NCBI GenBank assembly: GCA_002700095.1
Contig: PACL01000044.1
Location: forward strand, 33,555 to 97,554
Reading direction: 5' to 3'
Origin: Fulvimarina sp.
GTDB lineage: Bacteria > Pseudomonadota > Alphaproteobacteria > Rhizobiales > Rhizobiaceae
Length of the DNA: 64,000 nucleotides
A program made the position numbers and the translations under genes. This document shows, piece after piece, positions 9,034 through 63,177 of the stretch. The stretch's first letter is position 1. Each line of letters starts with the position of its first letter. The notes under the pieces are model-generated. The model had not been told where the DNA came from, did not search any database, and was given only the letters and a program-made list of their open reading frames with translations.

Positions 9034-9061
9034 CAGACTGCTTTAGGCTTAAAATTATTTC
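9034..9061 (-). promoter_or_regulatory. Operator site A, core TTTA-N4-TAAA
   Basis: Read on the minus strand the site is GAAATAAT, then TTTA AGCC TAAA, then GCAGTCTG. The core is at 9042-9053. It lies 97 bases upstream of the family-5 binding-protein start. It is one of nine sites sharing the core, spacing and flanks. The repressor is inferred to be the MarR protein at 39504-40046. Confidence 0.7.
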
Positions 9062-9573
9062 ACCATTAAAGGACCAAGTGCGCGGCTTTGCCAAGGGGGG
9101 TTCCTAGGCATTTTCGCCGGAGCATATTTTTTGTGCAGAGCGGGATGAATTGCGGCAGTGCGAGAGGGTCGGTGGCCGCGCATTTTTGGGCTTGAATGTT
9201 TTAAGATTAAAGCATTCAATCGGAGCCCGACCCCAGCCGTTTCGATCGAGCGAACGGAGAGTGCCGCCATGCCGCGCCACGCCAGAGATCCGCAAGCCTT
9301 GAGGGCGCCGGGGCGCCCGGCCATGCTGCATGGCGGCTGTGGCTCCGTCCGGTTCGAGCTCTGCCACTTCGTCGCCGGTTCGTCGTGGGGCCCGACTGCC
9401 CGGCCGGATGCGGAGCGAGGAAATGCCGCGCGAGGATCGGCCAGGGCTGTTTGCCGCCGTCGGGTCTTGCCGGCGACCGGGCGAGTGGCGTTTTACCCTT
9501 GGCGGGAAGCGCTGGGCCGCGTCGATGTCGAACCGGCCTGCGGCGATCTTCAGCTATCCGTGCGAGCAGGATC
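9062..9573. other. Long divergent control region without a convincing gene
   Basis: The 628 bases between the starts at 8945 and 9574 hold operators A and B and, at 9128-9143, a T-rich 16-mer that recurs at 48156-48171. From B onward there are about 355 bases before the CoA-ligase start. Short frames exist there in several phases, but none has a good start with a ribosome site or a protein I recognise. It may be a long 5-prime leader or the remains of a small gene. Confidence 0.5.
9192..9219 (+). promoter_or_regulatory. Operator site B, core TTTA-N4-TAAA
   Basis: This is the most symmetrical of the nine sites: GAATG, T, TTTA AGAT TAAA, G, CATTC, so the arms extend to 24 bases (9194-9217) with few mismatches. 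The core is at 9200-9211. A plausible promoter overlaps it: TTGGGC, 16 bases, TAAAGC. It points toward the CoA-ligase operon starting at 9574. Confidence 0.72.
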
Positions 9574-11220
9574 ATGACGATGCACCCGGCAGGCGAGGCG
9601 AGCGGCACCGTCTTCGCCCGGTTCGAGGCGGTGGCGAAGCAGTTTCCCAGCCGCCCCTTCCAGGTGGTCCTCCCCGAGACGGCGGCGGCCTACGGGATCG
9701 CCGCCGAAGAGATCACCTATGGCGAGATGCTGGCGCGCGTGCGCAGCCGCCGCGACGCCTATCGACGGGCTGGCTACGGGCCCGGCCACAGGGTCGGCCT
9801 CCTGCTGCGCAACCGGCCGGATTTCCTGATCCACTGGTTCGCGCTGAACGGCCTCGGGGCCTCGATCGTGCCGATCAATCCGGACCTTCGCGCCGCCGAA
9901 CTCGAATATCTCATCGGCCATTCCGGGATGGTCCTGGCCGTTTCCCTCGAAGAGCGGATCGGCGAACTCGAACGGGCCGGTGACGCGATCGGCGCGTCGA
10001 TCGACGTCGTTGCGCCGGATGCGGACTGTCCGGCCGCGCCGCGCCCTTTCTTCACGGCGGCTCCCCCGGATGAGAGCGAATGCGCGCTGCTCTACACCTC
10101 CGGCACCACCGGGCGGCCGAAGGGCTGCGTCCTCACCAACGCCTATTTCCTCGGCGCCGGCGACTGGTATGCAGGGATCGGCGGCCTTTGCTCGCTGCGC
10201 CGCGATCCGCCCGAGCGCATGCTGACGCCGCTGCCGCTGTTCCACATGAACGCACTGGCCTATTCGGTGATGGCGATGGTGACCGTCGGCGGCGCGATCG
10301 CCGTTCTTGACCGGTTCCATCCGAAGAGCTGGTGGTCGAGCGTGCGCGCCTTCGAGGCGAGTGTCGTCCACTATCTGGGTGTGATGCCGGCGATGCTGAT
10401 GACCGCCGACCCGTCGCCGTCCGACCGCGATCATTATGTGCGCTTCGGCTTCGGGGCGGGCGTTCCGGCGGCCCTGCACGCGCCCTTCGAAGAGCGGTTC
10501 GGCTTTCCGCTCCTGGAGGCCTGGGCAATGACCGAAACGGGCGCCGGCGCGGTGGTGATCGCCAACGAGGAGCCCCGCAGGATCGGCACGAGCTGCTTCG
10601 GGCGGCCGGCGCCGGCCGTCGAGGTGGCGATCCGCCGCGACGACGGGGCGGATGCCGGGATCGGCGGGCCCGGCGAACTCCTGGTGCGCGCGGCGGGCGA
10701 GGATCCGAGGCGCGGCTTCTTCCAAGCCTATCTCAAGGATCCCGACGCGACCGATGCCGCCTGGGAGGGCGGCTGGTTCCATACCGGCGACGTCGTCAGC
10801 CGGGACGCTGACGGACAGCTGCATTTCGTCGACCGCAAGAAGAACGTCATCCGCCGCTCCGGCGAGAACATCTCCGCCGTCGAGGTGGAAAGCGTCCTCG
10901 GCGAGCATCCGGCCGTTGCGCAGGTCGCCGTCGCCGCGACGCCCGATCCGATCCGCGGCGACGAGGTGGCGGCTCTCGTCGTCGCCCGCGAAAAGATCGA
11001 CGATGCGCAGGCGGCCCAGCGGCTCGCAGCGGAGATCGTCCGCCATGCCCTGTCGCGGCTCGCCTATTACAAGGCGCCGGGCTATGTCGCCTTCGTGTCG
11101 GCGCTGCCGCTCACCTCGACGGAAAAGATCCAGCGCGGCGCGCTGAAGCAGGATGTGGCGCGGATCATGGCCGGCGGCGAGGCGATCGACACCCGGGCCA
11201 TGAAGAAGCGGTCGGTCTGA
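9574..11220 (+). CDS. AMP-forming acyl/aryl-CoA ligase (CaiC-like)
   Basis: Protein of 548 residues of the ANL adenylating family. It has the phosphate loop YTSGTTGRPKG at about 173-183, the hinge region WFHTGD near 402, the RKK..RSGENISAVEVE segment near 430-445, and the C-terminal TSTEKIQRG with the catalytic lysine near 518. It would activate a carboxylic acid as a CoA thioester. Overall it resembles crotonobetaine/carnitine-CoA ligase annotations, but no substrate is implied. The start may be this ATG or the one two codons later, which is better spaced from AGG. It overlaps the next gene by one base. It probably supplies the CoA ester used by the thiolase-like/DUF35 pair downstream. Confidence 0.88.
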   Translation: MTMHPAGEASGTVFARFEAVAKQFPSRPFQVVLPETAAAYGIAAEEITYGEMLARVRSRRDAYRRAGYGPGHRVGLLLRNRPDFLIHWFALNGLGASIVPINPDLRAAELEYLIGHSGMVLAVSLEERIGELERAGDAIGASIDVVAPDADCPAAPRPFFTAAPPDESECALLYTSGTTGRPKGCVLTNAYFLGAGDWYAGIGGLCSLRRDPPERMLTPLPLFHMNALAYSVMAMVTVGGAIAVLDRFHPKSWWSSVRAFEASVVHYLGVMPAMLMTADPSPSDRDHYVRFGFGAGVPAALHAPFEERFGFPLLEAWAMTETGAGAVVIANEEPRRIGTSCFGRPAPAVEVAIRRDDGADAGIGGPGELLVRAAGEDPRRGFFQAYLKDPDATDAAWEGGWFHTGDVVSRDADGQLHFVDRKKNVIRRSGENISAVEVESVLGEHPAVAQVAVAATPDPIRGDEVAALVVAREKIDDAQAAQRLAAEIVRHALSRLAYYKAPGYVAFVSALPLTSTEKIQRGALKQDVARIMAGGEAIDTRAMKKRSV

Positions 11221-14542: not shown

Positions 14543-14571
14543 TTGCACGGCGCGCCCGAAAATAGTTTAAT
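14543..14571 (+). promoter_or_regulatory. Sigma-70-type promoter for the anthraniloyl-CoA unit
   Basis: TTGCAC at 14543-14548, a 17-base spacer, and TTTAAT at 14566-14571 make a near-ideal housekeeping promoter. The minus-10 box is the left half of operator C, so a bound repressor would block it. Confidence 0.6.
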
Positions 14572-14585
14572 CCTAAAATAATTCA
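14558..14585 (+). promoter_or_regulatory. Operator site C, core TTTA-N4-TAAA
   Basis: GAAAATAG, then TTTA ATCC TAAA, then ATAATTCA, with the core at 14566-14577. It lies 38 bases before the start of the monooxygenase/reductase gene and overlaps the minus-10 box. Confidence 0.72.
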
Positions 14586-14615: not shown

Positions 14616-16994
14616 ATGCGCATCACGGTGATCGGCGGCGGACCCGGCGGGCTCTACTTCGCGCTCCTGACCAAGAAGGCGCGGCCGGAGTGGCAGATCG
14701 CCATCTACGAGCAGAACCAGGCGGACGACACCTTCGGCTTCGGCGTCGTCTTTTCGGATGAGACGCTGCACGAGTTCCTGTCGCGCGACCGCAAGTCCTT
14801 CGACAGGATCCGGGGCGAGTTCGCCTATTGGGACGACGTGGCGGTCCACAAGCAGGGCAAGGAGATGCGCTGCGCCGGCAACGGCTTTGCCGGCATCTCG
14901 CGCAAGAAGCTGCTCCAGATCCTGCAGCAGCGCTGCCGGGAAGAGGGCATCGAGATGCATTTCGGCGTCACGATCCCGCCGGAGGAGATCGCGACAAGGT
15001 TCGCGGACAGCGACATCGTCGTCGCTTCGGACGGCGTCAACTCCCGTATCCGCGAGGCCTTCCGCGAGAGCTTCCAGCCGGAGGTGCAGATCAAGTCGAA
15101 CCGCTTCTGCTGGATGGGCTCCTCCCGTCCGATGGACGAGTTCAACTACTTCTTCCGGGAGACCGAGCACGGCATCATCTGTGCCCATACCTATCAGTAT
15201 GAAGAGGGTCGCTCGACCTGGATCTTCGAGATGGACGACGCCTGCTGGCGCGGCCATGGCTTCGACGGCATGGACGAGGAGCAGTCGAAGGCGGTTCTCG
15301 AGACGCTTTACGAAGAGGAGCTGCAGGGCCATCCGCTGCTGCTCAACCGCTCGAACTGGCGGCAGTTCCCGCGCATCTTCTGCAACAGGTGGTGGCACGA
15401 CAACATCGTGCTCCTCGGCGACGCCAAGGCCTCGGCGCACTACTCGATCGGGTCGGGCACCAAGCTGGCGATGGAATGCGCGATCTCGCTGTCGGATTCG
15501 GTTCTGGCCCACGGCGAGACCAGCGCCGAGGCGGCGTTCAAGGCCTATGAAGACGAGCGGCGGACGCCCTGCCAGATCATCCAGCACAATGCCGACGTTT
15601 CGCTGGCCTGGTTCGAGCACATGAACCGCTCCTGGGACATGGATCCGGAGCAGTTCGCCATGGTCGTCATGTGCCGGGCGAAATCGATCACCTACGACAA
15701 TCTGATCGTGCGCGATCCGGCCTTCGTCGAAAAGGTCGACACGGCCTTCTACGAGCGACTCCTCGCCGAGACCGGCGAGGACTACCGCAAGAGCCGGCCG
15801 ACGCCGATGTTCACGAAGTTCCGGCTGCGCGACATGGAGGTCGCCAACCGGGTCGTCATGTCGCCGATGGCGCAGTATTCCGCCGACGAGAACGGTAACC
15901 TCACCGACTGGCACTTCGTCCACTACACCTCCCACGCCCTCGGCGGCGCCGGCATGGTGTTCATCGAGATGACCTGCCCCTCAGCCGATGCCCGCATCAC
16001 GCCGGGCTGTCCTGGGCTGTGGACCGACGAGCACGAGGCCCAGTTCAAGCGCATCACCAGCTTCGTCCACGCGCATTCGGCGACGAAGATGGTGCTGCAG
16101 CTCGGCCATGCCGGGCGCAAGGGATCGACCCAGCTCGGCTGGCAGAAGATGGACATGCCACTCGAGGAAAAGGCGCAGAACTGGCCGCTCTTCTCGGCTT
16201 CGCCGCTCGCCTATCATGACGGCGTCAGCCAGCAGCCGAAGGCCATGGATCGGGCCGACATGGACCGCATCAAGGCCGATTTCGTCCAGGCGACCGAGCG
16301 GGCCGATCGGGCCGGCTTCGACATGATCGAGCTCCACTGCGCCCATGGCTATCTGCTGGCGTCCTTCCTGTCGCCGCTGACCAACAAGCGGACCGACGAC
16401 TATGGCGGCCCGATCGAGAACCGCCTGCGCTATCCGCTGGAGGTGTTCGAGGCGATGCGGGCGGTCTGGCCGCGCGAGAAGCCGATGTCGGTCCGAGTCT
16501 CGGCGTCGGACTGGGCGGAGGACGGGATCAGCGAGGAAGACACCTTCGCCATCGCCGAGGCCTTCGCGGCGGCGGGCTGCGACCTGATCGACGTCTCCGC
16601 CGGCCAGACGGTCGCCGAGCAGAAGCCGGTCTACGGGCGGATGTTCCAGGTGCAGTTCGCGGAAGCCATCCGCAACGTGCCGAAGATGGCCGTGATGGCC
16701 GTCGGCGCGATCACCGAGCCGGCGCAGGTCAACACCATCCTCCACACCCGCCGCGCCGACCTCGTGGCGCTCGGCCGCCCGCACATGTGGAACCCGTATT
16801 TCACCCGCGAGGCTTCCGCCTGGTACGACACCCGCAACCAGCATTGGCCCGAGCAGTATCTCTCCGGTCGCGACCAGGCGCATCGCGAGCTGTCCAAGAA
16901 GCGCGAGCAGGAGATCGAGCTGAAGCGCAAGGCGAGGCCGCGGCCCCATGACCTCGAGGCCGAGGCGCAGGACCAGCGCAAGGCGGCCGAGTGA
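14616..16994 (+). CDS. 2-aminobenzoyl-CoA monooxygenase/reductase (anthraniloyl-CoA monooxygenase)
   Basis: Protein of 792 residues that fuses two flavoenzymes. The N-terminal part (1-385) is an FAD monooxygenase, with the dinucleotide motif VIGGGPGGLYF at 4-14 and the second FAD motif LLGDAKASAHYSIGSG near 267. The C-terminal part (from about 395) is an old-yellow-enzyme reductase, with LQLGHAGRKG near 492 and HGYLLASFLSPLTNKRTDDYGG near 577. This order defines the enzyme first studied in Azoarcus evansii. It hydroxylates and then reduces anthraniloyl-CoA to 2-amino-5-oxocyclohex-1-ene carboxyl-CoA, removing aromaticity. Its substrate would come from the CoA ligase at 35858-37501. The next gene overlaps its stop by one base. 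Confidence 0.93.
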   Translation: MRITVIGGGPGGLYFALLTKKARPEWQIAIYEQNQADDTFGFGVVFSDETLHEFLSRDRKSFDRIRGEFAYWDDVAVHKQGKEMRCAGNGFAGISRKKLLQILQQRCREEGIEMHFGVTIPPEEIATRFADSDIVVASDGVNSRIREAFRESFQPEVQIKSNRFCWMGSSRPMDEFNYFFRETEHGIICAHTYQYEEGRSTWIFEMDDACWRGHGFDGMDEEQSKAVLETLYEEELQGHPLLLNRSNWRQFPRIFCNRWWHDNIVLLGDAKASAHYSIGSGTKLAMECAISLSDSVLAHGETSAEAAFKAYEDERRTPCQIIQHNADVSLAWFEHMNRSWDMDPEQFAMVVMCRAKSITYDNLIVRDPAFVEKVDTAFYERLLAETGEDYRKSRPTPMFTKFRLRDMEVANRVVMSPMAQYSADENGNLTDWHFVHYTSHALGGAGMVFIEMTCPSADARITPGCPGLWTDEHEAQFKRITSFVHAHSATKMVLQLGHAGRKGSTQLGWQKMDMPLEEKAQNWPLFSASPLAYHDGVSQQPKAMDRADMDRIKADFVQATERADRAGFDMIELHCAHGYLLASFLSPLTNKRTDDYGGPIENRLRYPLEVFEAMRAVWPREKPMSVRVSASDWAEDGISEEDTFAIAEAFAAAGCDLIDVSAGQTVAEQKPVYGRMFQVQFAEAIRNVPKMAVMAVGAITEPAQVNTILHTRRADLVALGRPHMWNPYFTREASAWYDTRNQHWPEQYLSGRDQAHRELSKKREQEIELKRKARPRPHDLEAEAQDQRKAAE

Positions 16995-20442: not shown

Positions 20443-20470
20443 GTATATAGTTTAAGTTTAAAGTGACTAA
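20443..20470. promoter_or_regulatory. Operator site D, core TTTA-N4-TAAA
   Basis: GTATATAG, then TTTA AGTT TAAA, then GTGACTAA, with the core at 20451-20462. It lies between divergent starts, 61 bases from the crotonase start and 95 from the 141-residue protein, so one site could control both directions. Confidence 0.7.
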
Positions 20471-24386: not shown

Positions 24387-24396
24387 GGCATTTCCC

Positions 24397-35359: not shown

Positions 35360-35405
35360 GGCCGTCCGTTCAACCTGAAAGGCGGGATGCCGCCAGTAAA
35401 CCCGC

Positions 35406-37501: not shown

Positions 37502-37515
37502 GTCGGGCGTCCCCT

Positions 37516-38670: not shown

Positions 38671-38673
38671 GTC

Positions 38674-39507: not shown

Positions 39508-40046
39508 GTCTTGCCTCTGCGTCTGGGTTCCGGAATGGCCCCGCCGGTGGCCGACTGGACCGAGGATTTGAGTGAGCCGAGACGCTGCAGCAGCACGTCC
39601 TGGTCGCGGGCCGGCATGTCGGCCAGAAGCTCGGCGATCCAGTCGCTGTGCGCCTTCGCCATCTTGGCGAAGGTCGCGCGACCGTCCTCGGTGAGCCGCA
39701 CCCGGGCGGCGCGGCGGTCGGTCGGCGAGATCTGCCGGTCGATCAGCCCCTCCTGGACCAGCCGGTCGACGAGGCCGGTGACGTTGCCGTTGGAGACCAT
39801 CATGCGCCGCGACAACTCGCCGAGGAGCAGGCCGTCCGGCGAGCGTTCGAGCTGGGCCATCATGTCGAAGCGCGGCAGGGTCGTGTCGAAGCAGGCGCGC
39901 ATCCGCCGGCGGATCTCGGTCTCAATCATGTTGGCGCAGGTCAGGAGCCGCAGCCACAGGCGCAGCTCCATCCGGTGGTCCTGGGGGCTCTCCTCGACCT
40001 TGGATTCGGCGTCGACCGTCTCGACCTTGCGTCCGGCGATGCTCAC
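39504..40046 (-). CDS. MarR-family regulator, likely master repressor of the TTTA-N4-TAAA regulon
   Basis: Protein of 180 residues from the GTG at 40044-40046, which overlaps the SDR stop (GTGA). The winged helix is clear: [30 protein letters not shown], then the wing [13 protein letters not shown] (110-122). The flanking helices are of MarR dimerisation type. It is the second gene of the SDR to arylformamidase operon, and operator E overlaps that operon's promoter, so it is probably autoregulated. MarR relatives in aromatic catabolism (BadR, CouR) respond to aryl-CoA esters. By analogy anthraniloyl-CoA is the likely effector, which is an inference. Confidence 0.88.
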
Positions 40047-40816
40047 AACTCGCCTCCTGCTACGGCGATCGCCTGGCCGGTCACGGCGGAGGCGCCGGCG
40101 CTCGCCAGCCACAGGACGGTGGCCGCAACCTCGTCGGGACGGATCAGCCGCCCCATGGGATTGGTCCTGGTGAAGGTCTCCAGCAGCGCCTCGCGGTCGC
40201 GGCCGGTCTTTTCCCGCAGCTTGTCGATCGAACCGGAGACGAGGTCGGTGTCGGTATAGCCGGGGCAGACCGCGTTGACGGTGATCCCGGTCGTCGCCAG
40301 CTCGGCGGCGAGCGCCCGGGTGAGACCGACGGCGGCATGCTTGGCGGCGCAATAGGCGCCGACATAGGCATAGCCCTTCAGTCCGGCGGTCGACGCGACG
40401 GTGACGATCCGGCCGTGGCCGCGCTCCTTCATGGCCGGCACGACGGCGCGCATGGCCACCAGCATCGGCTCGAGGTTCAGCGCCATCATGCGCCGCAGCT
40501 GGTCGACGTCCGTCCGCGACAAGGGTGCGGTTTCGGCGCCGCCGGCATTGTTGACGAGGACGTCGATCGGGCCGCACCTGTCGGCTGCCGCTGCCAGCGC
40601 CGCCGCGAGAGCGTCCTGATCGGCAACGTCGGCGGCGACCGCGTTGGCCGCGCCGAGTTCGGCGCGGCAGCGCTCGGCACTCTCCGGGCTGCGGCCGTGC
40701 ACCGTGACGGTGTCGCCCGCCGCGACGAAGGCGGCCGCCACGGCCCGGCCGATGCCGCGGGTGCTGCCGGTCACGAGGATATGGCGGGGGCGGGGTTCCT
40801 TGGACAAAGACGGCAT
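40043..40816 (-). CDS. Short-chain dehydrogenase/reductase (3-oxoacyl reductase type)
   Basis: Protein of 257 residues with the cofactor motif VTGSTRGIGRAV, NNAGGAET, and the active site VASTAG...YCAAK with tyrosine and lysine intact. It is of the FabG/PhbB kind and should use NAD(P) to interconvert a hydroxyl and a ketone, perhaps on the alicyclic CoA ester. It is the first gene of the MarR operon. Operator E ends its promoter about 20 bases upstream. Confidence 0.9.
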   Translation of the reverse strand: MPSLSKEPRPRHILVTGSTRGIGRAVAAAFVAAGDTVTVHGRSPESAERCRAELGAANAVAADVADQDALAAALAAAADRCGPIDVLVNNAGGAETAPLSRTDVDQLRRMMALNLEPMLVAMRAVVPAMKERGHGRIVTVASTAGLKGYAYVGAYCAAKHAAVGLTRALAAELATTGITVNAVCPGYTDTDLVSGSIDKLREKTGRDREALLETFTRTNPMGRLIRPDEVAATVLWLASAGASAVTGQAIAVAGGEL

Positions 40817-40828: not shown

Positions 40829-40856
40829 GAAGATGTTTTAGCCTTAAACTATTTTC
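40829..40856 (-). promoter_or_regulatory. Operator site E, core TTTA-N4-TAAA
   Basis: On the minus strand: GAAAATAG, then TTTA AGGC TAAA, then ACATCTTC, with the core at 40837-40848. It shares its left flank exactly with site C. Confidence 0.72.
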
Positions 40857-40946: not shown

Positions 40947-42212
40947 TCAGGCGTTGGCGGCCCGGCGCTCCGGCTCGGCCCGTTCGGCCTCGGTGGCAAA
41001 GCCCGCCTTGCCGGCATAGCCGCCGACGATGGCCTTCAATTCGGCCCGGTGGATGACGTCCTCGACATTGGCAAAGCCCGCCGGCGCACGTTTTTCGACC
41101 TCGTCGATCACCCGCTCCGGACCGCCCTTGCGGTTCATCCTGACGACCTCGGCGGTGATCGGCAGGCGCTCCTTCTCGTAGGCGAACAGCGCCTGGCAGG
41201 GATGTTCGGCGCGCACGAGATTGTCCGCGAGGCAGCGGGCGTCGAGGATCGCCTGGGAGGCGCCGTTGGAGCCGACGGGATACATCGGATGGGCCGCGTC
41301 GCCGAGCAGCGTCACCCGGCCGAAGGTCCAGCGGGGCAGGGGATCGCGGTCGCACATGGGATATTCGAAGGCCTGGGGCGTCGCCTCGACCAGGGCCGAG
41401 ACATCGAAATCCGGGATCTTGAAGCGGCTGGCATAGGGCAGCACGAGGGCGCGCTGGGCGACGCGGGACCAACTCTCCTTGGGCGGCGGCGACTTCGCCC
41501 CGTCGGCCATCTTGATGTTGACGACCCAGTTCATCAGCTGCTTGCCGTTTTCGGCCTCGGCGATGGGATAGAGCACGAATTTCGCCCCCATGCCGCCGCC
41601 GATCGCCATGGTCCGGCCGTCGCGCCAGGGCGTCCACTCGGTGGCGCCGCGCCACATCAGGACGCCGTTCCAGGAGGGCGCGCCCTCGTCCGGATAGAAC
41701 AGCCGCCGCGCCGCCGAATGGATGCCGTCGGCGCAGATCAGGACATCGCCGCGCACCGTCATGCCGGCGCCGCCTTTGACGCTGTCGGTGAAGTGGGCGG
41801 TGACGCCGCCCTCGTCCTGGATGAAGCCGGCAAGGGCAAGCCCGGTCTTCACCGCCTCTGGCCCGAGCCGTGCGATCACCGCGTCGTGGATCAGCTTCTG
41901 CAGCCGGCCGCGATGGATCGAGAACTGCGGCACCGAATGGCCGGCGTCGATGCCGCGCAGCTCGCGCCACACCTCCTGGCCCTGGCGGTTGAAGTAGTAG
42001 AGTTCGCGGGTGCGGATGCCGGCATTGTCGAGGGCCGGGAGAAGGCCGATCTCGGCGAGTTCACGGATCGCATGGGGGAGCGTGTTGATGCCGACCCCGA
42101 CCTCGCGCACCGCCGGCGACTGCTCGTAGACCTCGGCGCGGATGCCGCGCTGGTGGAGCATCAGCGCGGTGGTGAGGCCGCCGATGCCGGCGCCGACGAT
42201 GATGACCTTCAT
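40947..42212 (-). CDS. FAD-dependent aromatic monooxygenase (PhzS/salicylate-hydroxylase type)
   Basis: Protein of 421 residues of the group A flavoprotein monooxygenases. It has VIIVGAGIGGLTTAL at the N-terminus, the middle DG motif in VLICADGIHSAARR, and GRVTLLGDAAHPMYPVGSNGA near 290. Proteins annotated as flavin-dependent oxidoreductases of this type hydroxylate small aromatic acids. It is not a clear kynurenine 3-monooxygenase. It follows the cupin gene by 89 bases and precedes operator E. The pair may form a side route, for instance hydroxylation followed by ring cleavage by the cupin. Confidence 0.88.
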   Translation of the reverse strand: MKVIIVGAGIGGLTTALMLHQRGIRAEVYEQSPAVREVGVGINTLPHAIRELAEIGLLPALDNAGIRTRELYYFNRQGQEVWRELRGIDAGHSVPQFSIHRGRLQKLIHDAVIARLGPEAVKTGLALAGFIQDEGGVTAHFTDSVKGGAGMTVRGDVLICADGIHSAARRLFYPDEGAPSWNGVLMWRGATEWTPWRDGRTMAIGGGMGAKFVLYPIAEAENGKQLMNWVVNIKMADGAKSPPPKESWSRVAQRALVLPYASRFKIPDFDVSALVEATPQAFEYPMCDRDPLPRWTFGRVTLLGDAAHPMYPVGSNGASQAILDARCLADNLVRAEHPCQALFAYEKERLPITAEVVRMNRKGGPERVIDEVEKRAPAGFANVEDVIHRAELKAIVGGYAGKAGFATEAERAEPERRAANA

Positions 42213-42301
42213 GGTTCGTCTCCTTCAATCCCCGCTGCCGCGGATGAATGACCGCCGGCTCGGCCCCTTCGGCCGGATACGCTACGCTGCTTCAGGCCGG
42301 C

Positions 42302-42760
42302 TCAGGCCGCGTCCGGCGGCGGCAGGAAGTCCACCTCGTGCCGTGCGGCGACGGCGACCACCTCGGCCGGATCGGCCTGCGGCCCGAGATTGTGCAGCGC
42401 CCAGAAAAGATCGTAGAGCCGCTGGGCCGGCGAGACCCAGAACAGGCACTTCACGTCCGAATCGGTCTTGTTGAAGAGGCCGTGGGGAATGCCCTTCGGC
42501 AGCCGCACCAGGTCGCCCGGCTCGGCGAAGCCCTCCTTGCCGTCGAGGAGGACGTCCAGCCGGCCCGACAGGATGTAGACGAACTCCTCCTGGGTCGGAT
42601 GGATGTGCGGCGGCACGAAGGTGCCGACATGGAACGTCGCATGCCAGGAGAAGGAATCGTGCGAATGCTGCTTCGGCACGTAGGTCTGGCCGAGGATGTT
42701 CCAGCTGATGCCGTCCATCCCCTCATTGGCCTTGGAAACGCCGATGGTCATCACTGGCAT
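42302..42760 (-). CDS. Single-domain cupin, candidate metal dioxygenase
   Basis: Protein of 152 residues from the ATG at 42758-42760, with AAGGA about 10 bases upstream. Metal ligands are visible as His52, His54 and Glu58 in HIHPTQEE, and His93 in IPHGLF. This is the full 3-His-1-Glu set of a catalytic cupin. It lacks the family look of 3-hydroxyanthranilate dioxygenase. The neighbouring FAD monooxygenase suggests it could cleave or bind a hydroxylated aromatic. A sensing or isomerase role is also possible. Confidence 0.82.
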   Translation of the reverse strand: MPVMTIGVSKANEGMDGISWNILGQTYVPKQHSHDSFSWHATFHVGTFVPPHIHPTQEEFVYILSGRLDVLLDGKEGFAEPGDLVRLPKGIPHGLFNKTDSDVKCLFWVSPAQRLYDLFWALHNLGPQADPAEVVAVAARHEVDFLPPPDAA

Positions 42761-42824
42761 GGGGTGCGGTCCTTGTGTGCGTGCTACGAGCGGTGTGTTC
42801 ATTCGAGTGGGTTGGGCGCGACCC

Positions 42825-42921
42825 CTTCACCCTCATGGTGAGCTTGTCGAACCACGAGGGTGAAGGCTCCGGCTGGTGGTGCCAAGCGCCCCTCGCCCTT
42901 CGACAGGCTCAGGGTGAGGGG
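42825..42921. repeat. Tandem palindromic intergenic repeats
   Basis: Two imperfectly related palindromes. The first (42825-42865) has 10-base arms CTTCACCCTC and GAGGGTGAAG. The second (42889-42921) has 11-base arms CCCCTCGCCCT and AGGGTGAGGGG with one G-U pair. Both contain GTCGA or TCGAC in the loop. Such elements are common between genes in alphaproteobacteria. Here they separate the Liv operon end from the cupin gene and may act as terminators or mRNA stabilisers. Confidence 0.7.
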
Positions 42922-42968
42922 CTACTGCTTTGTCAGCGTGCCATTGCAGGCGTCGGACATCGTCTTCC

Positions 42969-43670
42969 TCACACATGCAGGAACCGCTCCTTCACCGCCG
43001 GCGTCGTCCGCAGCTCCGCCGTCGTGCCCGACCAGGCGACGCGGCCCTTTTCGATCACCACGTGGCGGTCGGCGAAACGGGTCAGCGCATCGACATTCTT
43101 GTCGATGACGAGGATCGCCTCGCCGGCGTTCTTGATCTCGGTCAGGCAGGCCCAGATCTCCTCGCGGATCAGCGGCGCGAGGCCCTCCGTCGCCTCGTCG
43201 AGGACGACGAGCCGGGGATTGGTCATCAGCGCCCGGCCGACGGCGAGCATCTGCTGCTCGCCGCCGGAGAGCTGGTTGCCCATGTTGCGGCGGCGTTCCT
43301 TCAGCCGGGGAAACAGCCTGTAAACGGCGTCGAGCGTCCATTTCGGCGCGCCCGGCCCGTCGGAGCGGTGGGTCGCGACGAGGTTCTCCTCGACCGACAG
43401 CGTCGGGAAGATCTGCCGGCCTTCCGGCACCAGCCCGAGCCCGCGCTTGGCGACAACGTGGGGCGGCCGGCCGGTGACGTCCTCGCCGTCGATCGACACG
43501 CGACCGCCGCGCGGCTTCAACAGGCCGAAGATCGAGTTGACCGTCGTCGTCTTGCCCATGCCGTTGCGCCCCAAAAGGGTCACGACCTCGCCGGCGCCGA
43601 CGAAGAGATCGATGCCAAACAGGATCCGGCTGTCGCCGTAAGCGCTTTCGAGGCCTTCGACTTTCAGCAT
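42969..43670 (-). CDS. livF: Liv-type ABC importer ATPase (LivF-like), second system
   Basis: Protein of 233 residues with Walker A GRNGMGKTT, GLVPEGRQIFPTLSVEENL, signature LSGGEQQMLAVGRA, Walker B LVVLDEATEGLAP and VIDKNVDAL. GRNGMGKTT and the DEATEGLAP step are typical of LivF proteins in aromatic-acid or amide importers. It is the last gene of the second Liv operon and overlaps the LivG-like gene by 7 bases. Confidence 0.92.
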   Translation of the reverse strand: MLKVEGLESAYGDSRILFGIDLFVGAGEVVTLLGRNGMGKTTTVNSIFGLLKPRGGRVSIDGEDVTGRPPHVVAKRGLGLVPEGRQIFPTLSVEENLVATHRSDGPGAPKWTLDAVYRLFPRLKERRRNMGNQLSGGEQQMLAVGRALMTNPRLVVLDEATEGLAPLIREEIWACLTEIKNAGEAILVIDKNVDALTRFADRHVVIEKGRVAWSGTTAELRTTPAVKERFLHV

Positions 43671-44428
43671 CGCACGGCCTCCTCTTCCTCACCCAGATAG
43701 GCGGCTCGCACGTCCGGGTGGCTGCGCACTTCGGCAGCCGAGCCGGTGGCGATGAGCCGGCCGTAGACGAGGACGCTGACCCGGTCGGCCAGCGCGAAGA
43801 CCGCATCCATGTCGTGCTCGATGAGGACGATGGTGTGGGTGGTCTTCAGCTCGCGCATCAGCTCGACGAGGACGGCGGATTCTTCGTGGCCGGTTCCGGC
43901 GAGAGGCTCGTCGAGCAGGAGGAGCTTCGCGCCCGTCGCCAGAGCGATGGCGATCTCCAGCTGGCGCTTCTCGCCATGGGAGAGGCTGCCGGCGCGGCGC
44001 TGCGCCCGGTCGTCGAGTTTCACGCGGGCGAGCGCGGCCATGGCTTCGTCGTTGAGGCGGCGCTCCTTCGAGGCCGGGCGCAGGAAACGGAAGCTCGAGC
44101 CGGACCGCGCCTGCACCGCCATAGCGGCGTTCTCGATGACGGTGAAGCCGTCGAGGATCGAGGTGATCTGGAAGGAGCGGGCGAGGCCGAGCCGCACCCG
44201 GTCGACCATGGAATGCCGGGTGATGTCCCCGCCGGCGAGGCGGACGGTGCCGGAATCGCATCCGAGACTGCCGGACAGCTGGTGGATCAGCGTGGTCTTG
44301 CCGGCGCCGTTCGGTCCGATGATGGCGTGGAGCTCGTTGTCGTGAACGTCGAAGCTGACCCCGTCGGTGACGGCGAGGGCGCCGAAGGACTTGCGCAGGT
44401 CGGTGACGGTAAGGAGGGGCTGGCTCAA
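43664..44428 (-). CDS. livG: Liv-type ABC importer ATPase (LivG-like), second system
   Basis: Protein of 254 residues with Walker A GPNGAGKTT, ARSFQITSILDGFTVIENAAM, signature LSHGEKRQLEIA (LSHGE replaces LSGGQ, as is normal for this subgroup), Walker B LLLLDEPLAGTGHEES and IEHDMDAVF. It pairs with the LivF-like ATPase encoded next. Confidence 0.92.
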   Translation of the reverse strand: MSQPLLTVTDLRKSFGALAVTDGVSFDVHDNELHAIIGPNGAGKTTLIHQLSGSLGCDSGTVRLAGGDITRHSMVDRVRLGLARSFQITSILDGFTVIENAAMAVQARSGSSFRFLRPASKERRLNDEAMAALARVKLDDRAQRRAGSLSHGEKRQLEIAIALATGAKLLLLDEPLAGTGHEESAVLVELMRELKTTHTIVLIEHDMDAVFALADRVSVLVYGRLIATGSAAEVRSHPDVRAAYLGEEEEAVRC

Positions 44429-45447
44429 CTCCGCGGCCTCCCGAACAGCCGCGCGACTCCGCCGACGATGCCGCCGCGGGTGAAGAGGACGAGCAGGACG
44501 AGCAGGACGCCGAGGCCGAGCTTCCAGTGCTCGGAGAAATGCGCCAGCCAGTCTTCCAGCAGCAGCAGGGCGATGGCGCCGCCGATCGCGCCGACGAGAG
44601 TTCCCATGCCGCCGAGGACGACCATGACGATGAGTTCGCCCGAGCGCTGCCAGCTCATATAGGCCGGCGAGACGAACTCGGCCTGGTTGGCGAGCAGCAC
44701 GCCGGCGATGCCGGCGAGGGCGCCGGCGATGACATAGGCGGTCAGCTGGAACGCGAAGGGCTGGAAGCCGATCGCCTGCATGCGGACCGGGTTTTCCTTG
44801 GTGCCCCGCAGCACTCGGCCGAAGCGCGACAAAGTGAGGGCGCGAAGACCGACGAAGGCGAGGACTAGGACGCCGAGGCTCAGATAGAACAGGGCGAAAT
44901 CGCTCTTGAGGATCGGCAGTCCGAACAGCGTCGATCGGCCGCCCAGAGTGAGCCCGTCGTCGCCGCCATAGGCCGACAGCGAGACCATGAAGAAATACGC
45001 CATCTGGCCGAAGGCCAGCGTGATCATGATGAAATAGACGCCCTTGGTGCGGAGCGAGATCGCCCCGGTGACGAGGGCGAAGAGGGCCGAGGCCGCCACT
45101 GCGACGACGCCCTGAACGAGGATGTCGGAGATCCCGTGCGACGACAGGATCGCCACCGCATAGGCGCCGAGGCCGAGAAAGGCGGCATGGCCGAAGGACA
45201 CCATGGCGCCGTAGCCGAGGACGAGGTCGAGGGAGAGGGCGGCAATGGCGAAGACGATGATCCGCGTCGCGGTGACGACGAGGAACGGGTCGTTCACGGC
45301 GACCGCGACCGGCGGCAGAACGGCCAGCACCAGGAAGATCAGAAGGGCGGCGAGTGCGGTGCCGCGCCCGGCGAGCCTGCCGCCGCGCGGTGCCGCGACG
45401 TCCGGCACGGCACCGGTGATCGCAAGGTCGGAGGTCCGGGCGCTCAT
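44425..45447 (-). CDS. livM: Liv-type ABC importer permease (LivM-like), second system
   Basis: Protein of 340 residues with about ten membrane helices. LGYGAMVSFGHAAFLGLGAYA and GRVLRGTKENPVRMQAIGF are the LivM hallmarks, and VVLGGMGTLVGAIGGA is the C-terminal coupling region. It overlaps the genes on both sides by 4 bases. Confidence 0.93.
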   Translation of the reverse strand: MSARTSDLAITGAVPDVAAPRGGRLAGRGTALAALLIFLVLAVLPPVAVAVNDPFLVVTATRIIVFAIAALSLDLVLGYGAMVSFGHAAFLGLGAYAVAILSSHGISDILVQGVVAVAASALFALVTGAISLRTKGVYFIMITLAFGQMAYFFMVSLSAYGGDDGLTLGGRSTLFGLPILKSDFALFYLSLGVLVLAFVGLRALTLSRFGRVLRGTKENPVRMQAIGFQPFAFQLTAYVIAGALAGIAGVLLANQAEFVSPAYMSWQRSGELIVMVVLGGMGTLVGAIGGAIALLLLEDWLAHFSEHWKLGLGVLLVLLVLFTRGGIVGGVARLFGRPRS

Positions 45448-46370
45448 GCCGCCGCGCCTTTCGCCGGGAACAGCCCGGAGGGCCGGAAGAACAGCACCGC
45501 CGCCATCAGGATGTAGATCAGCATCGGCGCCAGCGTCTGGCCGGTCTGCGAGGCGGCGGAGGGTTCCATGACGGCCCGGAGCACGATCGGTCCGAATGTC
45601 CGACCCAAGGTGTCGACGAGGCCGACGAGGATCGCCGCGACGAAGGCACCGCGCACCGAGCCGACGCCGCCGATGACGATGACGACGAAGGTTAGGATGA
45701 GGATGCCGTCGCCCATGCCCGGCTCGACCGACAGGATCGGCGCGACCATCGCGCCCGCAAAGCCGGCCAGCATCGCGCCGAAGCCGAAGACCAGCATGAA
45801 CAGCCGGCGGATGTCGACGCCGAGCGCCGAGACCATCGGCGCGTTGACCGCCCCGGCTCTGAGCAGCATGCCGATCCGCGTGTGGTTGACGAGGAGCCAG
45901 AGGCCGACGGCGGTGAGAAGGCCAGCGGCGATGATGGCGACCCGGTAAAAAGGGTATTTCAGCGGCCCGATCAGCGGGATCGCGCCGGAGAGGATCTCAG
46001 GGATCGGCACGCTCATCGGCGCCGCGCCCCAGACGATCTTGACGCCCTCGTTGAGGATCAGGATCAGCCCGAAGGTCGCCAGCACCTGGTCGAGATGGTC
46101 GCGCTCGTAGAGATGCCGGAAGATCAGGACTTCGAGGACGAGACCGAACAGCAGCGCGGCGGGCAGCGCGATGGCGATGCCGAGAAGGAAGTCGCCGGTG
46201 AGCGCCGTGAAGGTCGCGGTGAAATAGGCCCCGACCATGTAGAGGACGCCATGGGCGAGGTTGATCAGGTCCATGATGCCGAAGATCAGCGTCAGCCCCG
46301 CCGCGACGAGGAACAACAGGATCCCGAACTGGACGCCGTTCAGCGTCTGGAGGAGGAAGAGGTTGAACAT
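45444..46370 (-). CDS. livH: Liv-type ABC importer permease (LivH-like), second system
   Basis: Protein of 308 residues from the ATG at 46368-46370. It opens with LQTLNGVQFGILLFLVAAGLTLIFGIMDLINLAHG, the LivH signature, and has VIVIGGVGSVRGAFVAA near the C-terminus. An upstream in-frame start would add 35 hydrophilic residues with no family match and is rejected. Confidence 0.93.
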   Translation of the reverse strand: MFNLFLLQTLNGVQFGILLFLVAAGLTLIFGIMDLINLAHGVLYMVGAYFTATFTALTGDFLLGIAIALPAALLFGLVLEVLIFRHLYERDHLDQVLATFGLILILNEGVKIVWGAAPMSVPIPEILSGAIPLIGPLKYPFYRVAIIAAGLLTAVGLWLLVNHTRIGMLLRAGAVNAPMVSALGVDIRRLFMLVFGFGAMLAGFAGAMVAPILSVEPGMGDGILILTFVVIVIGGVGSVRGAFVAAILVGLVDTLGRTFGPIVLRAVMEPSAASQTGQTLAPMLIYILMAAVLFFRPSGLFPAKGAAA

Positions 46371-46798
46371 ACCTTGCGCGTCATCATCCTCGAGGCCCGG
46401 TCCCGAAAAGTCCGGGAGGGAGATGGGATTCGATTGCGGGTGCCAGAGCGAAGCTCGCGCGCCCGTTCTCGGCATGCCGCCTCTTCAAGACGACGTCCTC
46501 GAAACGGAACCCCACGATCATGCCCGGCGCTGTCGCCCGACGGCGACGAACGGGGGATCATCATCCCCGCTTCGTCATCCCGGACTTGACCCGGGATCCA
46601 TGCCAAATTGCCGCGACCGCCAAGCCGGTTCTGAACGGAGTCCCATTCTGCCGCCGATCCATTCATGTTAGACAGCTTGGAATGGATCCCGGGTCAAGCC
46701 CGGGATGACGAGAGCCGCGACCCAACTGAAAGGCGGCATGCAGCGTTGCCGGATCCTTGCCGGTGAGATGGGCCGGCGAAAGGCTGACCCGCTTCGCC
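46371..46798. other. Intergenic stretch between LivH-like and LivK-like genes
   Basis: These 428 bases carry the inverted repeat pair at 46574-46710 and otherwise no gene I can support. Short frames on both strands lack ribosome sites and family resemblance. Two separate transcription units, or processing that raises binding-protein output, are both possible. Confidence 0.5.
46574..46710. repeat. Inverted pair of palindromic repeats
   Basis: GTCATCCCGGACTTGACCCGGGATCCA-type copies lie at 46574-46600 and, inverted, at 46683-46710, differing at one base over 27. Each copy is itself partly palindromic (CCCGG...CCGGG). This element is frequent in alphaproteobacterial intergenic DNA. The pair could fold into a long hairpin in the Liv transcript. 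Confidence 0.75.
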
Positions 46799-47980
46799 TC
46801 AGTTCATCTTGCAGTCCTTGGCGTAGTTGTCGGCGTAGTCGTCGAAGATCTTCTTTTCGATCTGCGTCTGGTACTTGCCGTCGTCGCGCTTGGCGACCTT
46901 GACGAGGTAGAAGTCCTGGATCGGATAGTGGTTCGGGCCGATCTTGAAGTCGCCGCGCAGCGAGGTGAAGTCGGCGGCCTGGAGCCCGTCACGCAGGGCT
47001 TCCGTCGCGGAGAGATCGCCATCCGCCGCCTTGATCGCCGCGTCGATCATCTGCGCCGCGTCATAGGCCTGCATGGCGTAGGTGCCGGGAACGCTGCCGT
47101 ATTTCGCCTCATAGGCGGCGACGAAGGCCTTGGACTTCTCGTTGTCCATGTCCGGCGCCCAGTTGGCGCCGCCGAAGAAGCCGACCGCCGCATCCTTTTG
47201 GGCCGGCAGCGTCGTCTCGTCGACGGTGAAGGCGGAGAGGAAGGGGATCGTCTCGAGCCCGGCCTGGCGATACTGCTTGACGAGGTTCACGCCCATGCCG
47301 CCCGGCATGAAGGTGTAGACCGCGTCCGGCTGCATCGCGGCGATCTGGGCGAGCTCGCCCGAGAAGTCGAGCTGCCCGAGCGGGGTATAGAGCTCGCCGA
47401 CGACCTCGCCCTTGTAGGAATGCTTGAAGCCGGCGAGCGCGTCCTTGCCGGCCTGGTAGTTCGGCGCCATCAGGAAGACCCGGCCGTAGCCCTCATCCTG
47501 GGCGTATTTGCCGAGCACCTCGTGCACCTGATCGTTCTGGTAGGAGGCGACGAAAAGGTTCTTGTTGCACTCGGCGCCGGCGAAGTTCGACGTGCCGGCA
47601 TTGGGGGAGATGAGAAAGGCGCCGCCGTCGGTGACGGGCTTGGCGATCGCCTGCAGGATGTTGGAGAAGATCGGGCCGACGACGAAGTCCGCTCCGTCGC
47701 GCTCGACCAGTTCGCGCGCCTTGTTGGCGGCGACGTCGGGCTTCAGCTCGTCGTCGACCGTGACCACCTCGGTCTCGAGCCCGCCGAGCTTGCCGCCCAT
47801 GTCCTCGACCGCCAGCATGAAGCCGTCCCGGGCCTGCTCGCCGAGAACCGCGGCGGGGCCGGAGAGGGTCAGGATCACGCCGACCTTCAGCTTGTCGGAG
47901 GAATTGTCCTGGGCCAGGGCCGGGGCGGCCAGGGCGCTCGCCGCCAGCAGGCCGATGGCGACGGTGCGGATCGTGGTCAT
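46799..47980 (-). CDS. livK: Liv-type ABC importer substrate-binding protein, second system
   Basis: Protein of 393 residues from the ATG at 47978-47980, with AGGGAGATGCAGGA upstream. The signal peptide ends in APALAQ near residue 24. The Peripla_BP_6 fold follows with KVGVILTLSGPAAVLGEQARDG and ADFVVGPIFSNILQAIAKPV. This variety is often found with aromatic-acid importers. It heads the second Liv operon, and operator F lies about 118 bases upstream, so uptake is probably induced with the catabolic genes. Confidence 0.92.
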   Translation of the reverse strand: MTTIRTVAIGLLAASALAAPALAQDNSSDKLKVGVILTLSGPAAVLGEQARDGFMLAVEDMGGKLGGLETEVVTVDDELKPDVAANKARELVERDGADFVVGPIFSNILQAIAKPVTDGGAFLISPNAGTSNFAGAECNKNLFVASYQNDQVHEVLGKYAQDEGYGRVFLMAPNYQAGKDALAGFKHSYKGEVVGELYTPLGQLDFSGELAQIAAMQPDAVYTFMPGGMGVNLVKQYRQAGLETIPFLSAFTVDETTLPAQKDAAVGFFGGANWAPDMDNEKSKAFVAAYEAKYGSVPGTYAMQAYDAAQMIDAAIKAADGDLSATEALRDGLQAADFTSLRGDFKIGPNHYPIQDFYLVKVAKRDDGKYQTQIEKKIFDDYADNYAKDCKMN

Positions 47981-48090
47981 TCCTGCATCTCCCTCATGAA
48001 AATCGACGATGGCCCCAGGCTCGAACAGACCCGTGTCAGGGCAGCCGGCAAGGCCCGGACGGGACGCGGCTTGGCAGCGCATCCATCCTG

Positions 48091-48118
48091 AAAATTAGTT
48101 TACACATAAAATAATCCG
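48091..48118 (-). promoter_or_regulatory. Operator site F, core TTTA-N4-TAAA
   Basis: On the plus strand: AAAATTAG, then TTTA CACA TAAA, then ATAATCCG, with the core at 48099-48110. The central four bases differ from the other sites, but the half-sites and flanks agree. Confidence 0.65.
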
Positions 48119-49146: not shown

Positions 49147-49278
49147 GGGGTGCTCCGCGGGGCGCGTCGGTGTCGTTGGGGAGGGCGCTCGGCGAGACGG
49201 GGCGCGGCGGTCATGGCCGCGCCCGCATTCCTTCGTCCGGCGGATGATCCGCGGCGTCGTGCGGGAGAGCGCGACGGC

Positions 49279-50097: not shown

Positions 50098-50331
50098 GTG
50101 AGCCTCATTTTCCCAATCGCGGTTTGCCGGGTCCGGCCGGTGCGGAGGCAAGCTCCTCCGCGAGCATCAGACGTCCTCGCCGCATCCTTCGCAAGCGCTC
50201 CGGTGCGGCGGTTGTCAGTCTCGTTGCAGGCGTCGCTCCCCGACCCTCGATGGGGCGCCTTCCGAAGTCCGACGTTCGCGCTTCGCAGTTCGACATCCGG
50301 CCTGGCTGCGATGCTGGCCGGTCATCGCCGG

Positions 50332-54182: not shown

Positions 54183-54235
54183 GCCGCGTCTCCTTTCGAG
54201 ATATCCCGAGCCCGCGCCGCGGCTGGGCCGTCATG

Positions 54236-54718
54236 TCAGAAATCGTGCTTGCGGACGTTGCGCAGAACCTTCTGCAGCACCGCGACGAAGCCCGCATAGT
54301 CCGCCTCGTCGACGCCCTCGAACATCTGGCGATAGATGCCCCGCATCACCGGCCAGACCTCGTCGAACAGCGCGCGGCCCTGGTCGGTCAGGAAGATCCT
54401 CCGCGCCCGGTTGTCGCCGGCGTCGGTCTCGCGCCGCAGCAGTCCCTGCGCCTCCATGGCGTCGAGGGTGCGGCTCATGGTCGACTGCTCCATGACGGCG
54501 TAGACCGCGACCTCGTTGATCGTGAGCCCCTCGGCCACCGCCAGGATCGCCAGGGTGCGGACCTGCGCCGTGGTGAGGCTGCGGGCCTTCAGTTCGTCCC
54601 GCAGCGTCGCGTTGTAGCGACCCATGATCCGGTTCATCAGGTAGGGTGCGAACTGCTGGAGGCCGATCACGCCGAGGGAGAGGGCGCGCTCGTCCGCCCC
54701 TGTCGGATCGTCACTCAT
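54236..54718 (-). CDS. MarR-family regulator, second copy
   Basis: Protein of 160 residues from the ATG at 54716-54718. The winged helix reads LTTAQVRTLAILAVAEGLTINEVAVYAVMEQSTMSRTLDAMEAQGLLRRE, and the wing is DNRARRIFLTDQG. It is clearly different from the MarR at 39504-40046. It lies between the cyclase-family gene and IorA in one minus-strand run. The GCAAA-N6-TTTGC palindrome 58 bases upstream of that run is its likely site. The effector is unknown. Confidence 0.88.
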   Translation of the reverse strand: MSDDPTGADERALSLGVIGLQQFAPYLMNRIMGRYNATLRDELKARSLTTAQVRTLAILAVAEGLTINEVAVYAVMEQSTMSRTLDAMEAQGLLRRETDAGDNRARRIFLTDQGRALFDEVWPVMRGIYRQMFEGVDEADYAGFVAVLQKVLRNVRKHDF

Positions 54719-54833
54719 CGGCCCGCCCGACCGCTTGCCTCGGCCCGGCACGCGGGCGAGGCAGCCTGCTCCCGTCGCCGGCCGTCCGGCCCCGCCATGT
54801 TCCGGATCGCGGGCCCTGCCGTCATGCTTCGCC

Positions 54834-59031: not shown

Positions 59032-59059
59032 GAGATTATTTTAAGCTTAGACATTTGCA
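59032..59059. promoter_or_regulatory. Operator site G, core TTTA-N4-TAGA
   Basis: GAGATTAT, then TTTA AGCT TAGA, then CATTTGCA, with the core at 59040-59051 (one mismatch in the right half). It overlaps the start of CATTTGCAAATG at 59052-59063, a perfect 12-base palindrome. It lies between divergent starts at 58978 and 59162. Confidence 0.62.
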
Positions 59060-61892: not shown

Positions 61893-61906
61893 CGCGGCCT
61901 CCCTGC

Positions 61907-61934
61907 AGGGTTATTTTAAACCTGAACCATTAGA
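61907..61934 (-). promoter_or_regulatory. Operator site H, core TTTA-N4-TGAA
   Basis: AGGGTTAT, then TTTA AACC TGAA, then CCATTAGA, with the core at 61915-61926. The right half has one mismatch to TAAA, the same as at site I. It is just upstream of the TTG start at 61892. Confidence 0.6.
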
Positions 61935-62024: not shown

Positions 62025-63119
62025 TTAGCTCCGCAGTCCCGCCTCCTTCAGCAGCGGCAGCACCCGGTCGCAGAAGAAGGGCAGCTCGTAGGTATAGTTC
62101 ACGAAGGTCAGCGCGATGCCGGCATAGCCGAGCTCGGCGATCCGAAGCATGTCCTCGGCGATCTTCTCCGGCGTGCCGACCAGCGGATAGCTGCCGGCCC
62201 CGCCGGCGAAGCGCTGGCGGTAGCGATCGTAGGCTTCGGGGTCATGGGAGGCGGAGAACTGCTTCTTGCCGGCCATGTGCGTCTCGACCGCCTCGTGGTC
62301 GGCCTCGGTGAGGGCGTAGCGTTCGTAATAGGCCTCCGCCTCGCCCTGGGTCTCGCGGCAGACCACGTGGCAGACCGTATAGAGGCCGACGTCGCGGCCG
62401 GCTTTTGCGCCGCGCTCGCGGACATCGGCGACATGCTGGGCCGCTCCGTCGAACTCGGAAAAGGTCGTGAAGATGAAGTCGCAATGCTGCGCCGCGAAGT
62501 CCCGGCCCGGGCCGCCGAAGGCGGCATTCATCGTCACCGGGCGCGGCGCCTGCAGGCTCGCCGGGCGGCTGACGACCTGCTTCAAATGATAGTAGGTCCC
62601 GTCGTAGTCGAACGGCTCCTCGGCGGCATAGGCCCGTTCCACGATCTCCAGCCATTCGGCCGCCTGGTCGTAGCCCTTCTCGCCGAGCGCCACGCCGAAC
62701 ATGGCGAACTCCGCCGGATTCCAGCCGCAGACGATGTTGAGCCCGGCACGTCCCTTGGAGATGTGGTCCACGGTTGCCAGGGCCTTGGCGGCATAGAGCG
62801 GGTGCATCACCGGCACGTGCACCGTCATGAAGAGGCCGATCTGCTCGGTCGCCGCCGCCAGCCCCGCCGCCCAGGTGAAAGTCTCGAAGGACCATTCGCG
62901 GGCCTTGGTCTGTCCGCCGAAGCCCTTCCACCGGGCGATCGGCAGCACGAATTCCAGCCCCGCCCGGTCGGCGATCTGGGCGGCATTGAGATTGTCGTCC
63001 CAGCGCGCCTGCCAGCGTTCGGGAACGGTGGTGATCGCGAGGCCGCCATCGGCATTGCAGGAGAAGATCCCGAGCTTGAGCCGGTTCGAGCCCTTGAGGG
63101 GATGCGGCTTGATCGTCAC
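62025..63119 (-). CDS. LLM-class flavin-dependent monooxygenase, paralogue
   Basis: Protein of 364 residues from the GTG at 63117-63119, with GAGAGG 8 bases upstream. FVLPIARWKGFGGQTKA, QIGLFMTVHVPVMHP, GRAGLNIVCGWNPAEFAMFG and GGAGSYPLVGTPEKIAEDML show the same family as the preceding protein. A TTG at 63152 would start inside operator I and is not favoured. The two paralogues run in the same direction but have separate operators, so they may be needed for separate steps or substrates. Confidence 0.87.
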   Translation of the reverse strand: MTIKPHPLKGSNRLKLGIFSCNADGGLAITTVPERWQARWDDNLNAAQIADRAGLEFVLPIARWKGFGGQTKAREWSFETFTWAAGLAAATEQIGLFMTVHVPVMHPLYAAKALATVDHISKGRAGLNIVCGWNPAEFAMFGVALGEKGYDQAAEWLEIVERAYAAEEPFDYDGTYYHLKQVVSRPASLQAPRPVTMNAAFGGPGRDFAAQHCDFIFTTFSEFDGAAQHVADVRERGAKAGRDVGLYTVCHVVCRETQGEAEAYYERYALTEADHEAVETHMAGKKQFSASHDPEAYDRYRQRFAGGAGSYPLVGTPEKIAEDMLRIAELGYAGIALTFVNYTYELPFFCDRVLPLLKEAGLRS

Positions 63120-63149
63120 GGCAGGGGCCTCTCTCGGAAAATTCGCGCG

Positions 63150-63177
63150 CAAAATAGTTTAAGCCTGAAATAGCTTG
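63150..63177. promoter_or_regulatory. Operator site I, core TTTA-N4-TGAA
   Basis: CAAAATAG, then TTTA AGCC TGAA, then ATAGCTTG, with the core at 63158-63169. It lies between the divergent LLM and aldolase genes, 38 and 80 bases from their starts. Confidence 0.68.

Follow-up and report, generated by a model that had tools for sequence, protein, structure and literature searches.

Nine palindromic sites in a Fulvimarina gene cluster are probable operators of a MarR regulator associated with predicted anthraniloyl-CoA catabolism

The described systems closest to the one reported here are MarR repressors of catabolic pathways. BadR controls cyclohexanecarboxylate degradation in R. palustris and Aromatoleum sp. 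CIB, where it represses a pathway of coenzyme A (CoA) thioesters and senses the first CoA intermediate, and it is conserved together with its operator, CAATnnATTG (CAAN4TTG), in Gram-negative bacteria (PMC9795900). CouR, the MarR of p-hydroxycinnamate catabolism in Rhodococcus jostii RHA1, is a repressor freed by an aryl-CoA compound, p-coumaroyl-CoA, and acts at several promoters with one box each (cATTGA-N5-TCAATg; PMC4737184). IadR, IadR2, and IacR repress auxin degradation with free indole-3-acetate as the ligand, and the iad-type route ends in anthranilic acid (PMC9613470). PMC5343134 names a MarR for tyrosine degradation (HmgS) and contains no mention of "anthranil." In the literature searched, outside which most subscription journals lay, we found no described MarR or other regulator of an anthraniloyl-CoA pathway. 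Here, we describe a stretch of 64,000 nucleotides at the end of a contig (PACL01000044.1; C76) of the Fulvimarina sp. assembly GCA_002700095.1, referred to below as the window, in which nine copies of a palindrome accompany the genes of a MarR protein (MarR1) and of ACMR, a monooxygenase-reductase fusion that we presume, from the nature of the fusion, to be a 2-aminobenzoyl-CoA monooxygenase/reductase.

Comparative sequence analysis indicates, with a probability of roughly 85%, that the nine palindromes are operators of MarR1, which would repress its own operon, ACMR, an importer, and this lineage's peripheral module until released by a CoA thioester. Such a regulator would act like BadR and CouR yet be neither, because their operators are absent. 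Neither CAATnnATTG nor CAAN4TTG occurs in the nine sites with 10 bp on either side, and the same holds for ATTGA-N5-TCAAT, also with spacers of 2 to 6; MarR1 and the chain labelled CouR in the PDB (6c28) align at no more than 32 bits. BadR also serves a different pathway. The Variovorax IadR chain (7kfo) scores 27.3 bits against MarR1, which is not the score of a close relative, and the auxin-MarR group lies nearer to a second MarR of the window (MarR2) than to MarR1.

All nine palindromes listed in the initial annotation (positions 9042, 9200, 14566, 20451, 40837, 48099, 59040, 61915, and 63158) were found in the window. Six carry the exact core TTTA-N4-TAAA, and the variants were as claimed (TAGA at 59040; TGAA at 61915 and 63158). 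The fuller form is a dyad of 20 to 24 bp, approximately aATAgTTTA-N4-TAAAcTATt. With up to one mismatch, the core matched the window 10 times (the nine sites and position 9059) versus 0.38 expected, a count reached by none of 100 shuffles of the window. The eight sites inside 742 to 63152 are all intergenic, where intergenic DNA makes up 6.2% of that region under gene bounds set by us, and the ninth, just past 63152, lies in the gap between LLM2 and the aldolase gene. The observation in the initial annotation is confirmed.

A 28-column matrix built from the nine sites in both orientations gave leave-one-out scores of 21.8 to 41.9 bits, compared with a top score of 14.0 bits in 20 Markov shuffles of the window. 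A sequence-only covariance model was run against the whole assembly (5,621,037 bases, 100 contigs); it returned 18 matches at an E value of 10 or better, all of them accounted for by the nine sites, each matched on both strands. The exact core occurs nine times in the assembly, six times in the window and three times elsewhere, on contigs C11, C15, and C67, with matrix scores of <6, 12.5, and 12.9 bits, respectively; the flanks carry much of the operator signal. With a second matrix, derived from 158 sites outside the genus that had themselves been collected using the window matrix, the nine sites ranked 1 to 9 (24.8 to 37.7 bits), followed by matches of 14.6 bits at 9059 and 7.1 bits. These results support the view that the nine sites form one operator family. 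Contig C67 (L016), 8.7 kb long with AT-rich stretches, bears a chance core at position 692 and no sign of a continuing cluster; we rejected that core as a continuation, given its 12.9 bits on an AT-rich contig with other matrix matches of up to 21.5 bits.

The palindrome was also recovered in a survey of ACMR upstream regions that was blind to MarR1. ACMR copies were collected at an E value of 1e-100 or better (48 from 101 relatives, plus 73 rows from 398 genomes of the phylum, 5 of which were already in the first set), and sites were counted, here and in the survey of loci below, at scores of at least 16 bits. Of 116 copies, 109 (46/48, 36/40, 18/18, and 9/10) had such a site no more than 1.5 kb upstream, whereas only 1 of 30 stretches of 1.5 kb downstream of ACMR contained one. 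De novo, among 3,328 gapped palindromes with four-base arms, TTTA-N4-TAAA ranked first by excess when the 300 bp upstream of ACMR were compared in genomes from outside the genus; it was present in 40 of 109 such stretches, compared with a shuffled mean of 0.4. Of 50 further genomes with ACMR, 47 have a MarR1 match at 1e-12, some with only 34 to 45% identity. Because the palindrome precedes most ACMR copies, and nearly always in genomes with a member of the MarR1 clade, MarR1 is its likely binder. An apparent case of ACMR and a site without MarR1 (G149) was set aside, as its contig stops 81 bases past ACMR, at the place that MarR1 occupies in sister genomes.

From 585 stretches encoding MarR1 relatives, we inspected 80 loci among the matches listed and found sites in 78. 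These loci, 1.48 Mb in total, hold 176 sites; Markov-shuffled versions of that sequence hold 2. No site of the 176 falls within a gene to which tblastn assigned a window protein (only relatives of window proteins were labelled), and 167 are within 450 bp of a labelled gene start. When two neighbors were allowed per site, the pairings were with ACMR (78), SDR (56), LivK2 (40), MarR1 (29), and CoA ligase 3 (19), and others were paired at most 3 times each. Genes traveling with MarR1 included those for RidA (69 loci), the hydratase (64), the dehydrogenase (54), and CoA ligase 3 (49). Since the sites sit mostly 30 to 100 bp 5' of start codons, and in view of the MarR precedent, we infer repression rather than activation.

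Presence and absence across genomes agree with this pairing. The MarR1 clade (E value of 1e-30 or better) and ACMR are both present in 46 of the 101 relatives and both missing from 52, and 3 have one without the other. The three are G012 and G083, with MarR1 and no ACMR, and G051, with ACMR and only a contig-edge scrap of MarR1. Within the genus, seven genomes have MarR1, ACMR, and sites, and three have none of these; model matches were likewise obtained in 7/7 genomes with MarR1 and 0/3 without. The nearest relative in the set is G004 (MarR1 98%). At homologous promoters, the sites stay with their genes despite differing gene order. In one congener, MarR1 is in two pieces (G001:C1:753320-753809) while ACMR and sites are kept, reflecting either an assembly error or a recent loss.

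The protein itself is of the expected type. The open reading frame at 39504 to 40577, which contains MarR1, scored 47.0 bits with PF12802 (cutoff, 27) and 46.1 bits with PF01047 (cutoff, 24.6). An AlphaFold2 model of MarR1 (mean predicted local distance difference test score, 80.6, with ends below 50) has a helix at residues 86 to 98 and strands at 102 to 106 and 114 to 118, corresponding to the recognition helix and wing of the MarR fold, and the top Foldseek matches in the PDB were MarR proteins (E value, 3e-8). We regard MarR1 as a MarR family member with a predicted MarR fold. Its closest solved sequence, and second-ranked fold, is 3boq (97 bits), a MarR from Silicibacter pomeroyi whose entry title names no function and for which we found neither an operator nor a ligand.

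Taken over loci, ACMR upstream regions, and presence/absence, the gene at 39504 to 40046 is clearly the best candidate regulator, as the initial annotation had argued. The comparative evidence is unusually clean and widespread. The assignment of the operators to MarR1 is well supported; direct binding to the sites is probable, as is binding to the additional sites of the peripheral module. MarR1 would then be an autorepressor that sits on the operators before the SDR-MarR1 operon, ACMR, and the importer; one of the pathway's CoA thioesters, with anthraniloyl-CoA the most likely, would free it from DNA; and the peripheral module would have come under its control by operator gain.

Several observations weigh against the sites or their assignment. 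Across the assembly, the bare exact core is not enriched (9 occurrences versus 13 for a reversed control), and neither is the core with one mismatch (84 versus 265); the matrix reaches 21.5 bits at L016:2368, on AT-rich C67, which is on a level with the weakest leave-one-out score. Seven of the 116 ACMR copies lack a 16-bit site (G057 C132, G321 C29, G080, G409, G181, G468, and G442). The first two are second ACMR copies and the third has an upstream score of 14.3 bits; G442 is a plain exception because a MarR1-clade gene lies directly behind its ACMR. G341, G415, G271, and G389 pass with only 16.4 to 17.6 bits, and two of the 80 MarR1 loci (L108 and L141) are without a site. Of 83 sites among the matches listed, 55 are no more than 40 kb from the best MarR1 hit in the same genome, 20 are elsewhere in MarR1 genomes (>40 kb away or on another contig), and 8 are in genomes without MarR1. 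Finally, the substrate of ACMR is predicted only, and its nearest NCBIfam equivalog is a salicylyl-CoA 5-hydroxylase/oxidoreductase, just below the cutoff (1043.7 versus 1078).

That last point also favors the strongest competing explanation, in which MarR1 binds the sites and responds to free anthranilate, salicylyl-CoA, benzoyl-CoA, or a later intermediate. It is also favored by the auxin MarRs, which bind free acids (PMC9613470). RidA in 69/80 loci and a benzoate-type CoA ligase in 49/80 fit an amino-substituted CoA substrate instead, the RidA gene being the reason to favor an amino group, and BadR and CouR respond to CoA thioesters (PMC9795900; PMC4737184). We consider another effector a serious possibility, although the less probable one, and anthraniloyl-CoA the most likely candidate. 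The aryl-CoA effector that had been deduced from BadR and CouR is supported by them in kind, as only an analogy, since their operators differ.

MarR2 was overlooked in the initial annotation. It could bind all nine sites or a part of them, chiefly those of the peripheral module, with MarR1 a mere neighbor or sharer. It belongs to the same family, among solved structures it is closest to 3cjn and 7kym (99.5 bits for 7kym), and the auxin-MarR article PMC9613470 counts 7KYM among its structures and used 3CJN as a search model. The compared genomes that carry MarR2 also have more sites: in G004, G008, G035, and G045, sites additionally precede peripheral genes (SBP5, CoA ligase 1 or a racemase, and amine oxidases) in a differing gene order, while the stretches read in G001 and G005 have four and two sites, respectively, mostly at core genes. 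Against this, MarR2 is absent at an E value of 1e-20 from four congeners (G001, G003, G005, and G007), all of which keep MarR1, ACMR, and sites, so that we rejected it as a general binder; it was labelled by tblastn in only 6 of the 80 MarR1 loci. A role for MarR2 at these sites is thus improbable. Its gene lies in front of genes of the indolepyruvate-oxidoreductase type.

Still less probable is a regulator encoded elsewhere in the same genomes, with MarR1 merely traveling with the pathway. Co-occurrence and linkage alone cannot prove binding, which leaves room for such a protein, but the sites are dyads, as bound by MarR dimers, and 29 of the site pairings are with MarR1's own start. The two genomes that have ACMR without a MarR1-clade member (G389 and G409) show weak or no sites before ACMR (17.6 and 15.1 bits), and a GntR gene in the window (26281 to 27129) was rejected as the binder because tblastn labelled no relative of it in any of the 80 MarR1 loci. 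Least credible is an origin of the palindromes in chance or AT-rich promoter elements, which GC-rich genomes do have and which would suit a bare core no more frequent than its reversed control, since the shuffles, the downstream control at ACMR, the de novo ranking, the full model's lack of any other match in the assembly at an E value of 10, and the absence of model matches from the three congeners without MarR1 all contradict it.

The reading in which MarR1 is the repressor implies a set of target units (Table 1), whose contents were assigned by Pfam scans. A peptide-type importer follows operator A, and CoA ligase 1, a thiolase, a ChsH2-SDR fusion, and a cyclase follow B. Behind C are ACMR, a thioesterase, and CoA ligase 2; behind D, an enoyl-CoA hydratase and a 3-hydroxyacyl-CoA dehydrogenase. 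The unit of E comprises SDR, MarR1, an enoyl-CoA hydratase, an acyl-CoA dehydrogenase, the benzoate-type CoA ligase 3, RidA, and a hydrolase, and that of F a branched-chain-type importer, a cupin, and a flavin adenine dinucleotide (FAD) monooxygenase. Two genes of the flavin amine oxidase family flank G, and two luciferase-like monooxygenases and an HpcH/HpaI aldolase belong to H and I. Three AMP-forming CoA ligases are thus found behind sites, rather than the two previously counted, while the aldolase is real, its gene running off the contig end.

Table 1. Predicted operators and associated genes of the window
Feature	Positions	Strand	Context
Operator A	9034..9061		Centre 46 bp before SBP5/Opp importer (-)
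Operator B	9192..9219		Divergent gap, 179 bp before CoA ligase 1 (+)
Operator C	14558..14585		44 bp before ACMR (+); most conserved target
Operator D	20443..20470		76 bp (centre to match start) before ECH1-3HCDH (+)
Operator E	40829..40856		Before SDR-MarR1 operon (-)
Operator F	48091..48118		Before LivK2 importer unit (-)
Operator G	59032..59059		Divergent gap, AmOx1 (-) / AmOx2 (+)
Operator H	61907..61934		Before LLM1 (-)
Operator I	63150..63177		Gap between LLM2 (-) and HpcH/HpaI aldolase (+)
MarR1	39504..40046	-	180 aa; candidate binder of the nine operators
SDR	40043..40816	-	First gene of MarR1 operon
Remaining MarR1 operon	34478..39507	-	Enoyl-CoA hydratase, acyl-CoA dehydrogenase, benzoate-CoA-ligase-family ligase, RidA, alpha/beta hydrolase
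ACMR	14616..16994	+	FAD monooxygenase and old-yellow-enzyme type reductase fusion; predicted 2-aminobenzoyl-CoA monooxygenase/reductase
Unit behind operator F	40947..48082	-	Branched-chain-type importer LivKHMGF, cupin, FAD monooxygenase
MarR2	54236..54751	-	Second MarR of the window

The description of the cluster as a 54-kb regulon was overstated. With assumed operon bounds, the units behind sites sum to 36.3 kb over the 54-kb span, and no site precedes the units at 23112 to 34393 (a second branched-chain-type importer, aldo/keto reductases, GntR, kynureninase, and tryptophan dioxygenase) or at 48475 to 57381 (indolepyruvate-oxidoreductase type, MarR2, a cyclase, and an FAD oxidase). We rate the whole as a widespread regulon of an ordinary kind, not found described in the literature searched, that is extended here to a peripheral module.

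If the assignment is correct, it provides the operator and regulator of a route by which many Proteobacteria would degrade anthranilate that derives from tryptophan, kynurenine, or auxin. Sequence alone would then suffice to read off which genes belong to the regulon, a sensor part that responds to an aromatic CoA compound could be tested, and the cluster would be a case of regulon growth through operator gain around a new module. A bolder synthesis, for and against which we see the case as evenly balanced, would have one MarR, equipped with an operator code of its own, switch aerobic anthraniloyl-CoA catabolism throughout the phylum. In this lineage, it would have captured a peripheral module (the peptide-type importer, CoA ligases, thiolase, luciferase-like monooxygenases, flavin oxidases, and aldolase) through the seeding of operators, with the result that feeder routes are opened by the central intermediate while a second, auxin-type MarR gates entry to the module.

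Two minor observations concern the gene content of the window. The plus-strand stretch at 29821 to 34393 codes for kynureninase, for tryptophan 2,3-dioxygenase, and for an aldo/keto reductase whose frame continues into RidA; it has its own importer and no operator of this type, and is a possible second route to anthranilate under other control. The putative cyclase family (PF04199) is represented twice in the window, by a gene in an operator-led unit (13642 to 14448, plus strand) and by another outside such units (54834 to 55646, minus strand).

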